Part shown: positions 29,967 through 61,838 of the stretch, piece after piece
How positions within the stretch are numbered: position 1 is the first letter of the stretch
Layout: each line of letters begins with the position of its first letter
Assembly (NCBI RefSeq): GCF_001678675.1
Contig: NZ_LZRN01000008.1
Coordinates: 62,001 to 126,000 of the forward strand
Direction of reading: 5' to 3'
DNA length: 64,000 nt
From: Gelidibacter algens
GTDB taxonomy: Bacteria > Bacteroidota > Bacteroidia > Flavobacteriales > Flavobacteriaceae
Notes under the pieces: generated by a model
What the model saw: only the letters and a program-made list of their open reading frames with translations
What the model was told of the DNA's origin: nothing
The model's database searches: none
Program-made: the position numbers and the translations under genes

Positions 29967-30027
29967 TATGTAATGTAGAAGCACTTTGGTGTAATTCCAA
30001 AAACTAATTTTATTACTAAACTGATAT

Positions 30028-30055
30028 CTCAAACCTCAAACCTCAAACCTCAAAC
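30028..30055 (+). repeat. Heptanucleotide tandem repeat, 4 x CTCAAAC, before recN
   Basis: Four perfect head-to-tail copies of CTCAAAC end 7 nt before the recN ATG. A 7-nt unit is not a codon multiple, and no frame uses it. It falls in the usual ribosome-binding or leader area of recN. Confidence 0.9.
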
Positions 30056-30062
30056 CCAAAGC

Positions 30063-46632: not shown

Positions 46633-47592
46633 TCAAAACTGATCAATAATCATCGTCGCTACACGCAAGGCTTCTGTGCCATCATGAAGCGTGACAATTG
46701 GTTTTGTGTTTGTGTTAATGGCGTCTGCAAAAGTTTCCAATTCGTCCAAAATAGCGTTGTTATTGGAAATTTCTGGATTGTCAAAGTAGATTTGCTTCTT
46801 TACACCTTCGGCATTTTGAAGAATCATATCAAAATCTCCAGGCGTGCTCGGCGCGTCTTTCATCTTGACCACTTCACATTTTTTCTCCAGAAAATCGACT
46901 GAGATATAAGCGTCCTTTTGGAAAAATCGCGTTTTACGCATATTTTTTAATGAAATTCTGCTGGCAGTTAAATTGGCGACACAACCATTTACAAATTCAA
47001 TACGCGCGTTAGCAATATCTGGGGTATCACTAATAACAGAAACCCCGCTTGCAGATATATTTTTGACTTTTGATTTCACGACACTTAATATAATGTCTAT
47101 GTCATGGATCATCAAATCCAAAACGACGGGCACATCAGTCCCTCGTGGATTGAATTCTGCCAGTCTATGGCTTTCAATAAACATCGGATTTTGAATTTGG
47201 TCTTTTACCGCTTTAAACGCAGGATTGAAACGCTCCACATGACCAACTTGGCCCTTTACCTGATTTTCAGCAACGAGAGATCTTAGGGTTTCAGCTTCCT
47301 CCACAGTATTGGTTATTGGTTTTTCAATGAAAATGTGCTTGCCTTTGGAGATTGCTAATTTTGCACAGTCGTAATGAGACAGGGTGGGGGTTACAATATC
47401 CACAACATCTACAGCATCAATAAGAGCTTCAATAGAATCGAAATACTTGTATCCTAACTCGGCCTCAATTTTTTTGGCATTGGTTTCGTCAGCATCATAA
47501 AATCCGATCAATTCAAATTTTTCAGATTGGTTTAGAAGGCGTAAGTGAATTTTTCCAAGATGACCAGCACCAAGAACTCCTGCTTTTAACAT
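46633..47592 (-). CDS. Gfo/Idh/MocA family oxidoreductase
   Basis: 319-aa NAD(P)-dependent dehydrogenase. The Rossmann domain has GVLGAGHLGKIH at 5-16, the conserved EKPIT motif is at about 94, and an alpha/beta substrate domain follows with HDIDIIL. Substrates in this family are sugars, inositols or related compounds; nothing nearby specifies which. It is divergent from pcm. Confidence 0.9.
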   Translation of the reverse strand: MLKAGVLGAGHLGKIHLRLLNQSEKFELIGFYDADETNAKKIEAELGYKYFDSIEALIDAVDVVDIVTPTLSHYDCAKLAISKGKHIFIEKPITNTVEEAETLRSLVAENQVKGQVGHVERFNPAFKAVKDQIQNPMFIESHRLAEFNPRGTDVPVVLDLMIHDIDIILSVVKSKVKNISASGVSVISDTPDIANARIEFVNGCVANLTASRISLKNMRKTRFFQKDAYISVDFLEKKCEVVKMKDAPSTPGDFDMILQNAEGVKKQIYFDNPEISNNNAILDELETFADAINTNTKPIVTLHDGTEALRVATMIIDQF

Positions 47593-47653: not shown

Positions 47654-47695
47654 GAAGTCCGAAGCTTGAAGTTGGAAGCATGGAGCCATAAGCGC
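47654..47695 (+). repeat. GAAGNNN heptad array (6 units) between the Gfo/Idh/MocA gene and pcm
   Basis: GAAGTCC, GAAGCTT, GAAGTTG, GAAGCAT, GGAGCCA and TAAGCGC follow head to tail with exact 7-nt spacing. The same consensus, including GGAG as the fifth unit, recurs at 60423-60464. Confidence 0.85.
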
Positions 47696-47793: not shown

Positions 47794-48435
47794 TTGAAAG
47801 ATACATTTAAACATAAGGGCTTGCGACAGCAACTTGTTGGCATTGTAAAAGATAAAGGAATAACTGATGAAAAAGTATTAAAGGCTATCGGTAAAATTCC
47901 GAGGCATCTTTTTATGGATTCCAGTTTTTTGGATCATGCTTATCAGGACAAGGCGTTTCCTATTGCTGCTGACCAAACTATTTCGCAACCTTATACCGTG
48001 GCGTTTCAAACAGAGCTTATGCAGGTCAAGCCTGGAGATACCGTGCTTGAAATTGGTACTGGAAGTGGCTATCAAACGGCCGTCTTATGCGATTTGGGCG
48101 CCAAAGTTTACAGTATAGAGCGCCAATTGGAGCTTTTTAAAATCACCAGTAAGTTTCTTCCTAAACTTGGGTATCGCCCTAAAAAACTAATTTTTGGAGA
48201 TGGTTATAAAGGACTCAAGGAAGAAGCGCCTTTTGACAGTATTATCGTAACTGCCGGCGCGCCTTTTGTACCGAAATCTTTAATGAGTCAGCTTAAAATT
48301 GGTGGCCGATTGGTGATCCCCGTGGGAGATCAGGTGCAGACCATGACCTTGTTTATTAGAAAAGGACCAAAGGATTTTGAAAAGCATGAATACGGCGAGT
48401 TTCGATTTGTGCCTCTTCTGGAGGATAAAAACTAA
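47794..48435 (+). CDS. pcm: Protein-L-isoaspartate O-methyltransferase
   Basis: 213 aa with a TTG start (no in-frame ATG nearby). Repairs isoaspartyl damage in proteins. The family motif FMDSSFLDHAYQDKAFPI and TISQPYTVAFQTELM precede SAM motif I VLEIGTGSGYQTA. The C-terminus is normal. It is convergent with the DUF5686 gene across a repeat-rich gap. Confidence 0.94.
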   Translation: MKDTFKHKGLRQQLVGIVKDKGITDEKVLKAIGKIPRHLFMDSSFLDHAYQDKAFPIAADQTISQPYTVAFQTELMQVKPGDTVLEIGTGSGYQTAVLCDLGAKVYSIERQLELFKITSKFLPKLGYRPKKLIFGDGYKGLKEEAPFDSIIVTAGAPFVPKSLMSQLKIGGRLVIPVGDQVQTMTLFIRKGPKDFEKHEYGEFRFVPLLEDKN

Positions 48436-59179: not shown

Positions 59180-60355
59180 TCAAATTTTATAAGTACTGAT
59201 AATCTGTTTTAGTTTCAGTTTTAGGTCTTCACCGGTATCATAAACCATATCGGCATCAGAAGGGAAGCGGAGACGCTTGTTTTGTAGTAAATCAAGATCG
59301 TTCTGGTTCAGCGCACGTTTGTCGCCCTTTACAATAGCATAGAAGTTTTCGAAAACGAATTCACTTGAAATTGGAAACACATCCAAAGTTTGGTTGTTTC
59401 TCAAGTCCAAATAGACGATATCTGCAATCACTTGGGTCGACTTCAATTGGTGATATTCAAAATATCTGGCTCTCGCCTGAACTATCTTGTCAATTTTGAT
59501 GTCATTGCCCAGGCTGTCTTTGGCCACATTGCCAGCACGATCCAACTTGTAGTTCCAGCCGTCAACAAATTCCTTTTCTCTCAGTACTTCTTTTTCGTGA
59601 AGCTTTTCTGGAGACACATTGATGCGTTTTAGTTGTAGAACCATGGCATAATCGTAGTCAAGATCCTGTGCAGGATTAGCGTGATAAACCGTCCAAAATT
59701 GGTTCAAACCGTAAGTGTCAAAATTTAAGAGGTCATCTTCCAGTCGCTTTGGTATTATTTGGTCGGTTTGATTCTCAATGGTTACAATAATGTAGTCAGT
59801 TCCACGCTTGTGTGACGCTTCCATTAAATTGCGAGTGTCTTTATACTTAGGGTTGATGTGATCAATATATTGAAAGGTGCTGTACGCTTCCTTAAGATCG
59901 TCCTTAATGTCAGAATCTAGGAGGGCCAGTCCATTCTTGTACATATGCTCAGAAACTGCAAGGCGTGAATCAACAATAGCATTGCTGTAATCAGTAAAGC
60001 TAAATTGTATGTTTTTACCATTAACCTTTAATGGCAATACCGGTTTTATGGCTTCCTGACGTGCATCCAAATTCAGATAAAGGTCATAAATAGCTTTGTA
60101 ATGTTCTGGATTGCCATCTTTTTTAAGGTGATTGATATTTTTTAGATCGCGTTCAGCAGCTTTTTCATAGGCAGTTTTAAGTAGTACTACAAAATCTTGC
60201 TTACGGTCTTTATCCTTGTTGTTTTCAAGTTTTCGTAACGCCTCCCCAATGGCTTGGTTATAATTTCCAGAATGAAGGGCCTGCGCAATTTGTTTTTTAC
60301 CGCTACAAGAAACGAGCAGTGTTACAAGTAGTGTAAAGAGTAGAAATTTTTTCAT
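59180..60355 (-). CDS. Predicted lipoprotein with TPR-like N-terminal half
   Basis: 391 aa. Lipoprotein signal (LVTLLVSCSGKK). Residues about 25-185 read like helical repeat pairs (LHSGNYNQAIGEALRKLENNKD; ALLDSDIKDDLKEAYSTFQYIDHINPKY). A beta-rich region follows (YIIVTIENQTDQIIPKRLEDDLL), with charged, regularly spaced strands. No family recognised beyond hypothetical Bacteroidetes lipoproteins. The 5' gap holds a GAAGNNN heptad array. Confidence 0.72.
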   Translation of the reverse strand: MKKFLLFTLLVTLLVSCSGKKQIAQALHSGNYNQAIGEALRKLENNKDKDRKQDFVVLLKTAYEKAAERDLKNINHLKKDGNPEHYKAIYDLYLNLDARQEAIKPVLPLKVNGKNIQFSFTDYSNAIVDSRLAVSEHMYKNGLALLDSDIKDDLKEAYSTFQYIDHINPKYKDTRNLMEASHKRGTDYIIVTIENQTDQIIPKRLEDDLLNFDTYGLNQFWTVYHANPAQDLDYDYAMVLQLKRINVSPEKLHEKEVLREKEFVDGWNYKLDRAGNVAKDSLGNDIKIDKIVQARARYFEYHQLKSTQVIADIVYLDLRNNQTLDVFPISSEFVFENFYAIVKGDKRALNQNDLDLLQNKRLRFPSDADMVYDTGEDLKLKLKQIISTYKI

Positions 60356-60422
60356 AATTCTGGATTTAGTGGGGGTTTATTGATGGTGAAAACCAAAAGA
60401 TGTGCCAAACGTGAAAAGTTAG

Positions 60423-60535
60423 GAAGCTTGACGCTTGAAGCCTGAAGTGTGGAGAGCGAAGAACAATTTAGTTAAAACAGAAAAAAGCACGAAAATAAGT
60501 TGCTACCAATCTTCGTGCTTCCAGCTTCTAACTTC
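60423..60535. repeat. Inverted pair of GAAGNNN heptad arrays
   Basis: Plus strand 60423-60464: GAAGCTT, GACGCTT, GAAGCCT, GAAGTGT, GGAGAGC, GAAGAAC. Opposite strand 60535-60508: GAAGTTA, GAAGCTG, GAAGCAC, GAAGATT. Every unit is exactly 7 nt. The two arms face each other across about 43 nt and could form an imperfect hairpin between fumarylacetoacetase and the lipoprotein gene. Confidence 0.85.
60481..60520 (-). terminator. Terminator after fumarylacetoacetase
   Basis: AAGCACGAA (60485-60493) and TTCGTGCTT (60512-60520) form a 9-bp stem with an 18-nt loop. On minus it is followed by six T. It overlaps the right arm of the heptad array. Confidence 0.65.
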
Positions 60536-60542
60536 TTTCTAA

Positions 60543-61838
60543 TTACTTCTTCTTTTTCTTCTGATTATAAATGGGCAACAACTGTGTGGAGACTTCACCA
60601 AAACCAATTCTGGTGCCATCTTTTTCACAATGTCCCCTCATTATAACCGTGTCATAGTCATTGATAAATTTACGTTCTGAACCATCTTTCATTTTCAACG
60701 GTTTCTCGCCGCGCCAGGTCAATTCCAACATAGAACCAAAGGATTCTTCTGCAGGACCAGAAATGGTACCGCTACCCATCATATCACCTGAATTCACAGG
60801 ACATCCATTCACGGTGTGGTGGGCCAATTGCTGTGACATATTCCAATACATATATTTGAAATTGGACTTGCTCACAATAGTTTCCTTCGCATTTTTTGGA
60901 CGGATTGCGACCTCTAAATTGATATCATAACCTTTTTTTCCTTTAGATTGTAGATAAGGCAAAAGAGGTTTGATAGGCTTCGGACTCTCTACTTTGAAAG
61001 GCTCAATGGCATCAAGGGTTACAATCCAAGGCGACATGGAAGAGGCGAAATTTTTAGCCAAGAACGGTCCTAAAGGTACATATTCCCATTTTTGAATATC
61101 GCGTGCTGACCAATCGTTAAAAAGAACCAGTCCGAAGATATATTCTTCCGCTTCATTAACAGGAATTGGTTCACCCAAATCGTTGGCATCTGTGGTAATG
61201 AACGCCATCTCCAATTCGAAATCGACCAAATTGGAAGGCCCAAAAACAGGTTCTTTCGCACCATCGGGCATTGTTTGTCCCTGAGGCCTGTGTACAGGAA
61301 TTCCCGAAGGAATAATTGAAGAACTACGGCCATGATATCCTACAGGAATGTGCAACCAGTTTGGCATGAGCGCATTTTCAGGATCTCTGAACATCGTCCC
61401 TACGTTTTTGGCATGTTCTATGCTCGAGTAAAAATCAGTGTAATCACCAATTTGAACAGGCAATTGCATTTCAATTTCATCCAATCTAAAACAAACGATT
61501 TCCTTTTGTTTGATATTATTTTTTAATGTGGTGTTGTTGCTGTCAAAAACTTCAGCGATTCTATCCCTAACGGCACGCCATGTTTTACGGCCATCGGCAA
61601 TAAAATCATTTAAGGTGTCTTGAAGAAAAATATCGTCAGTAAGTGGGATACCCTCAAAATAACCAAGCTGATGTAAAGCACCAAGATCAATGGCGGTGTC
61701 ACCAATACGTGTACCAATGGTAATGATGTCATCTCGAGTTAAAAAAACACCAAATGGGATGTTTTGTATAGGGAAATCTGAATTCTTTCCAACGTGAAGC
61801 CAAGATGTTCTATCGGGATTATTTGCTGATAAAGGCAT
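60543..61838 (-). CDS. fahA: Fumarylacetoacetase
   Basis: 431 aa. Last step of tyrosine/homogentisate breakdown, giving fumarate and acetoacetate. The N-terminal SH3-like domain includes NPDRTSWLHVG, IPFGVF and DTAIDLGAL. The C-terminal catalytic domain has YTDFYSS, HIPVGYHGRSSS, DFELEMAFI and GSGTISGP. It ends in a run of five lysines, unusual but possibly neutral. No homogentisate dioxygenase gene is adjacent. Confidence 0.96.
   Translation of the reverse strand: MPLSANNPDRTSWLHVGKNSDFPIQNIPFGVFLTRDDIITIGTRIGDTAIDLGALHQLGYFEGIPLTDDIFLQDTLNDFIADGRKTWRAVRDRIAEVFDSNNTTLKNNIKQKEIVCFRLDEIEMQLPVQIGDYTDFYSSIEHAKNVGTMFRDPENALMPNWLHIPVGYHGRSSSIIPSGIPVHRPQGQTMPDGAKEPVFGPSNLVDFELEMAFITTDANDLGEPIPVNEAEEYIFGLVLFNDWSARDIQKWEYVPLGPFLAKNFASSMSPWIVTLDAIEPFKVESPKPIKPLLPYLQSKGKKGYDINLEVAIRPKNAKETIVSKSNFKYMYWNMSQQLAHHTVNGCPVNSGDMMGSGTISGPAEESFGSMLELTWRGEKPLKMKDGSERKFINDYDTVIMRGHCEKDGTRIGFGEVSTQLLPIYNQKKKKK

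Follow-up and report, generated by a model that had tools for sequence, protein, structure and literature searches.

Outward-reading GAAGNNN heptad arrays at gene edges in Gelidibacter: a dispersed intergenic repeat family in which whole units are probably gained and lost

The STRR of cyanobacteria are tandem intergenic units of 7 nt that are dispersed over the genome. They differ from the repeats described here in unit sequence and phylum, as judged from their general description. Rehm and colleagues described heptad repeats in Xanthomonas, GGGAATC or (GGGANTN)n, and in Nostoc, GGGGA(C/T)T, and linked them to G-quadruplexes (PMC4692102). In these heptads positions 1-4 are conserved, and the arrays are near-exclusively intergenic and adjoin open reading frames whatever the direction, lying on the sense strand after stop codons and on the antisense strand before starts. 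They form convergent pairs, are few in divergent regions, overlap stop codons, and are found at the same loci with different lengths in related species (PMC4692102). TAACTGA heptamer repeats occur in Beggiatoaceae, in Cyanobacteria and in a few Bacteroidetes, where they are accompanied by other heptamers, and a possible origin by slippage has been discussed for them (PMC4679880). As cited in PMC4679880 and PMC4692102, Mrazek et al. 2007 found that in genomes rich in long simple sequence repeats (LSSR) heptanucleotides outnumber the other classes, and proposed polymerase slippage.

In this article we describe a family of GAAGNNN heptad arrays in Gelidibacter and compare it with these systems. 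Like the Xanthomonas and Nostoc heptads, the family is built of tandem 7-nt units in which a purine core of 4 nt is conserved. It differs from them in phylum, in the core itself (GAAG versus GGGA or GGGG, with no run of three G, such that quadruplexes are not expected), and in having three variable positions, with the tail preference Y-W-N, instead of two (PMC4692102). It shares with the TAACTGA repeats the character of 7-nt intergenic direct repeats; however, TAACTGA is invariant and in its main species mostly lies shortly before start codons, toward which it is directed, whereas GAAG units are degenerate and read outward (PMC4679880). LSSR are defined as exact repeats, a definition that would overlook or fragment most GAAGNNN arrays, given their degenerate tails. 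Searches of open-licence papers found no name for a GAAG family, and searches with the array sequences returned unrelated primer matches alone. The remark in the original prediction that no such repeat was known to be named for flavobacteria needs correction, as the same architecture is on record for heptads of Xanthomonas and Nostoc (PMC4692102) and heptad arrays are on record for a few Bacteroidetes (PMC4679880). The gene-edge layout of heptads is already known in Xanthomonas and Nostoc, and the GAAG version without G-tracts adds a different core.

The analysis started from a 64-kb stretch of DNA, referred to as the window, in a 4.5-Mb draft Gelidibacter genome (G000), the fahA gene of which is 94 percent identical to that of G. 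salicanalis and 93 percent to that of G. mesophilus, the nearest named relatives. Arrays were scanned for with a simple unit score and a threshold of 12. When the 64-kb window was simulated 120 times with a first-order Markov model, the best score averaged 8.2 and reached at most 12.8. Two facing GAAGNNN arrays had been predicted between fahA and a lipoprotein gene, and both are present, with scores well above the simulated maximum (Table 1). The left array consists of the units GAAGCTT, GACGCTT, GAAGCCT, GAAGTGT, GGAGAGC and GAAGAAC. The right array has four exact units, GAAGTTA, GAAGCTG, GAAGCAC and GAAG, read on the minus strand from 60535 to 60511, which corresponds to G000:C8:122511-122535, and weaker units extend it out to 60549. 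The third array (GAAGTCC, GAAGCTT, GAAGTTG, GAAGCAT, GGAGCCA, TAAGCGC) lies in a divergent intergenic region and points outward from the 5' side of the Gfo/Idh gene. Beyond these three, no GAAG array scored above 12 in the window. When at least three GAAG at a fixed spacing were sought at periods 4-12, period 7 was found solely at the arrays of the original prediction, and the sole other case was one triplet at period 9.

Table 1. Coordinates of the heptad arrays and neighbouring features in the window
Feature	Position	Strand	Remarks
Left heptad array	60423..60464	+	six 7-nt units; score 24.3
Right heptad array	60508..60549	-	sense strand of fahA, overlaps fahA stop codon; score 23.3
Third heptad array	47654..47695	+	score 23.3
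fahA, fumarylacetoacetase	60543..61838	-	TIGR01266, 566 bits
Predicted lipoprotein, family-less	59180..60355	-	ORF call
Gfo/Idh/MocA-family oxidoreductase	46633..47592	-	PF01408; adjoins third array
Protein-L-isoaspartate O-methyltransferase	47794..48435	+	PF01135, NF001453; adjoins third array
fahA intrinsic terminator	60481..60520	-	AAGCACGAAG-loop-TTCGTGCTTTTTT
Conserved TTTGGCAC-N-TTTTGG box, -24/-12-like	60393..60409	-	upstream of lipoprotein gene

The three arrays of the window belong to a dispersed family of repeats whose period is truly 7 nt; such a family had been proposed from the facing arrays taken with the third one. Exact (GAAGNNN)4 gives 136 overlapping matches in G000, and the same pattern at period 8 gives none. 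In the eight congeners the counts are 26, 5, 16, 5, 3, 15, 9 and 16, such that all nine genomes of the genus contain the family, and the period-8 control gives 1 match in these eight combined. Period 8 served as the control because GAAG reversed is again GAAG, which makes a reverse-pattern control uninformative. Across the family Flavobacteriaceae 87 of 299 genomes have a match, as do 90 of 395 in a phylum-wide sample. The spread in Bacteroidota is patchy, with dozens of matches in some genera and zero in most, and the favoured tails differ by genus. The longest perfect GAAG run in G000 has 20 units (L040), and longer mixed arrays are also present. A motif-free scan of loci preselected for GAAG arrays found 114 arrays at period 7 compared to 0-12 at periods 5, 6, 8, 9 and 10, and also detected the heptads GAAGACT, GACGGGT, GAACACT, GAAAATA and GAATAAC. 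The longest heptad array encountered spans 677 bp and has about 97 units, which are GAATAAC or differ little from it (L045:1484-2160, G000:C16). An array of five CTCAAAC units lies in the window immediately upstream of a plus-strand gene (30021-30060); at this site the congener G003 has, instead of (CTCAAAC)5, a GAAG array after the stop codon of the upstream gene. Also in G003, a GAAG array occurs within an apparent ribD-like reading frame, in a variable linker (L213:2012-2046), and the orthologue in the window has no array.

Periodicity was also assessed in a sample that was blind to arrays, consisting of twenty 20-kb stretches picked irrespective of arrays (400 kb) and the window, with 240 regions following stop codons. 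In these regions AG is followed by AG 96, 86 and 76 times at lags 7, 14 and 21, compared to 50.6 +/- 5.3 at other lags; other Flavobacteriaceae have a weaker peak, at 7 alone. Over the whole intergenic part of this sample, distances of 7, 14 and 21 between GAAG and GAAG were counted 11, 12 and 10 times versus about 2, and overall identity at lag 7 is slightly raised. The original prediction named two outcomes that would speak against a repeat family, a lack of 7-nt excess in intergenic DNA or absence from close relatives. The excess is present, in the array-blind sample as AG-AG peaks after stop codons, and all congeners are positive. The prediction also held that the unit combines a kept 4-base core with a freely varying tail. 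Four of the six units of the left array have an exact GAAG. The tail is not free: among 294 units, 242 have C or T at position 5 and 239 have T or A at position 6, which gives the consensus GAAG-Y-W-N.

The placement of arrays was analyzed for 86 distinct intergenic GAAG arrays from G000, congeners and other genera relative to mechanical gene calls. Loci entered the polarity count if one or the other strand had GAAG in four exact units, a selection that favours neither direction. Arrays on the sense strand lie a median of 7 nt from the stop codon, and within 15 nt of it in 41 of 57 cases, while antisense arrays lie upstream of starts at a median of 68 nt and often just outside the promoter. 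Of 55 arrays in Gelidibacter, 47 have GAAG pointing away from the nearest gene and 8 have it pointing inward (p = 8e-8); 29 of the outward arrays are on the sense strand after a stop codon and 18 are antisense and upstream of the gene. Other genera contribute 12 outward and 3 inward arrays. Among neighbouring arrays there are 9 pairs of type '+-', 7 of type '++' and none of type '-+'. Facing arrays are the rule because each array points away from the gene beside it, and the layout noticed at the fahA locus is not a chance arrangement of one locus. Divergent regions contain 3 of the 86 arrays, though they make up 17 percent of the sample regions. A purine strand that starts near a reading frame in either direction (47 versus 8) and convergent pairs (9 versus 0) are further features in common with the heptads of PMC4692102.

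The polarity is not a general property of heptads, because homogeneous arrays of the GAAGACT subtype have no clear polarity (5 outward versus 8 inward) and no clear bias was found when polarity was looked for in non-GAAG heptads. Base composition was considered as its source and rejected, since single GAAG and CTTC occur at about equal frequency after stop codons. Growth that creeps directionally toward the gene, which predicts one sharp and one soft edge, was also rejected; the edges of Gelidibacter arrays decay alike on both sides.

At the fahA locus the right array is continuous with an intrinsic terminator (fold MFE -25 kcal/mol, z -2.6), the 5' arm of which is GAAGCAC-GAAG and overlaps the array in the same heptad register. 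The terminator, with its hairpin AAGCAC...TTCGTGCTTTTTT and T-run, is kept in all eight Gelidibacter genomes examined (L051-L058), with or without an array. It stands alone downstream of fahA in G001, G004 and G006 and is accompanied by one weak extra unit in G005, and in G000, G002, G003 and G007 two to five heptads immediately precede it, in register with the stem; the length difference between G003 and G007 is exactly 7 nt. Because these heptads are in register with the stem and vary across congeners, the right array is best described as a heptad extension of the terminator arm. The left array is on the antisense strand of the lipoprotein gene that follows it; 68 nt separate the array from the start codon of this gene, and it lies just upstream of the promoter-like box. 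This box is kept in orthologous intergenic regions of the whole genus and also of two further genera (L051-L061); the array starts on its far side and has degenerate counterparts in G002, G003 and G005. The box resembles a sigma-54 -24/-12 promoter (TTTGGCAY-N5/6-TTGRA). The lipoprotein gene, which has zero Pfam or NCBIfam matches, is found beside fahA throughout the genus. In G002 and G003 (L056, L057) the region has an extra palindrome-like insert of the type CTCGGGG...CCCACGAGG between the terminator and the lipoprotein promoter, possibly another dispersed repeat.

Array lengths were compared at orthologous sites, one genome per species, where the flanks could be aligned to within 10 nt. 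Among 13 non-zero length differences nine are multiples of 7 (35, 21, 7, 14, 35, 14, 14, 14 and 28), with a nominal p of about 1e-5 for comparisons that are not all independent. The other four are not multiples of 7, which counts against turnover by units, and several comparisons gave zero length change. At the site next to the L184 gene G003 and G007 differ by 14 nt, as do G002 and G008; at the L043 site G003 and G008 differ by 14 nt. The third array of the window is exactly 35 nt, or five units (47660-47694), longer than the clean site in G001 (L177) and G006 (L171), which retain a single GGAAGT, and in G002, G003, G007 and G008 this site is occupied by heptad arrays that differ in sequence. 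The proB site has GAAG heptads in G000 and G003, (TATTAAG)n in G007 and GATTAGG-like units in G008. Such swaps of heptads and the 7-nt steps are as expected if arrays at a tolerant site lengthen and shorten repeatedly by events of the slippage type. The variation of copy number per site by whole units among relatives (9 of 13) is also what is seen in heptanucleotide SSR that evolve by slippage. The original prediction had listed relics of slippage among its options, and this option fits best, as orthologous arrays mostly differ by whole units. The Mrp-site arrays, with no length change among five congeners, count against it.

The main fact that plain slippage leaves unexplained is the retention of the core with varied tails. 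At the L184-gene site, in seven congeners, GAAG is intact in about 30 of 32 units while the tails are widely different (counted by eye). Under plain slippage the tails should become uniform, or else core and tail should drift to the same extent, so the core retention at this site counts against it. At the Mrp site the core is struck by 2 of 3 substitutions, also counted by eye. Protection of the core, as judged from these alignments, is suggested but not established, because one site keeps its core while the other does not.

Several other explanations have to be weighed against turnover of tolerated repeat units. Facing arrays could form a stem-loop or cruciform, or arrays could be parts of transcription terminators; we consider such a structural role very improbable. 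It agrees with the right array at fahA, which runs into a conserved terminator stem, with the complementary cores of facing arrays, and with facing pairs that fold better than shuffled sequences (z down to -3.6 in some), but the partner that it requires exists for a minority of arrays (9 pairs among the 86), and the facing pair of the window itself has a fold z of just -1.3 to -1.8. RNA hairpins, which the original prediction had offered, are not supported as a general explanation: the folding excess of facing pairs is modest (z between -0.7 and -3.6), and most arrays are single. Terminators were likewise rejected except at fahA, as a terminator-like hairpin lies near 8 of 107 arrays compared to 54 of 400 control positions; a stem-loop followed by a T-run is associated with the right array at fahA and is not enriched across arrays. 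Rfam searches gave sub-threshold matches alone, to eukaryotic microRNAs and a snoRNA, and no known RNA family. Quadruplexes were rejected too: the GAAG core has no G-tracts, with at most an occasional GG or GGG at unit junctions, and therefore quadruplexes cannot be the general cause of the layout. Transposition or template switching could instead have inserted ready-made arrays of mixed tails beside genes, as might be suspected from identical unit strings that recur at unrelated loci and from the third array, where 35 nt with already differing tails are set against a clean site. We regard such copying as highly unlikely, since no target-site duplication and no common flanks were seen. The clean-site comparison has no visible duplication beyond the unit itself, and in a comparison with REP/BIME or MITE the 7-mer ladder is all that the loci inspected have in common. 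Moreover, other congeners have arrays at the same site, therefore loss in G001 and G006 is as likely as gain.

Two further explanations assign a function to the strand that is transcribed. The arrays might be boundary elements: RNA that enters from outside would carry the CTTC strand, could load Rho and would stop read-through or antisense transcription before the gene, whereas RNA leaving the gene would carry GAAG and be unaffected. The outward polarity regardless of gene direction, the rarity of arrays in divergent regions, and array positions kept across the genus with conserved cores are in line with this, and the CTTC strand is C-rich and G-poor (C 0.33, G 0.13, one TC per 7 nt), therefore a directional shield that loads Rho is conceivable from composition. 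We nevertheless judge it unlikely, as many arrays are just 25-45 nt, short for a rut site, and orthologous sites without arrays are common (fahA in G001, G004 and G006; the third array's site in G001 and G006). An RNA ladder in the 3'-UTR, with a single-strand RNA-binding protein such as a cold-shock or RRM protein bound to GAAG every 7 nt past the stop codon, appears quite unlikely. The 3' arrays are on the sense strand, with the stop codon on one side and the terminator on the other (the terminator comes after the array in 9 cases, overlaps it in 1 and precedes it in 0), therefore where a terminator follows, they should be transcribed as GAAG RNA, and the largely intact cores at the L184-gene site would suit such a protein. 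A ladder of this kind does not explain the outward arrays that are antisense and upstream of a gene, about a third (18 versus 29), nor the orthologues, of which many are missing the array, nor the unprotected core at the Mrp site. A broader proposal is that outward purine-core heptad ladders are a convergent, orientation-specific signal of gene boundaries, at least in Bacteroidota and Xanthomonas, with the core under selection and quadruplexes irrelevant, and that conserved machinery, for example Rho or an RNA-binding protein that takes 7 nt per unit, reads transcripts that cross the gene edge. Taken as a whole, we hold this proposal to be possible but doubtful.

The reading that we consider probable, though by no means secure, is that GAAG-Y-W-N arrays are dispersed heptanucleotide intergenic tandem repeats that gain and lose whole units and are tolerated at gene edges. 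Arrays would persist in unconstrained DNA beside genes, either on the sense strand after the stop codon or on the antisense strand just outside the start codon or promoter. The gain and loss of 7-nt units would proceed via replication slippage, with the short GAAG core as the anchor for re-pairing, and arrays with different tails could therefore still slip. More tentatively, the outward polarity may stem from transcription as it moves out of the gene, in which case the purine-rich GAAG strand would be the one that is RNA-like. At fahA the array is joined, without a break in register, to the 5' arm of an intrinsic terminator; this terminator is probably the older of the two and may have seeded the array, and the facing left array probably had an independent origin at the edge of the lipoprotein promoter. 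Most arrays would need no function.

A slippage-evolving repeat tolerated at gene edges is thus the most likely interpretation, and the polarity and the possible protection of the core are its interesting parts. GAAG arrays are copy-number markers for strain typing, and their existence cautions against taking a seven-base periodicity in intergenic DNA of Bacteroidota, on its own, as a sign of regulation. The combination of a heptad, a 4-nt purine core, outward reading and facing pairs is now found in two distant phyla with different cores, and therefore an explanation other than G-quadruplexes is needed for the shared layout. The alternatives are that a strand-polar mutational process acts generally at the edges of genes or that the arrays have a boundary function in common, and the nine genomes of the genus, in which the same sites are empty, short or long, make both directly testable.
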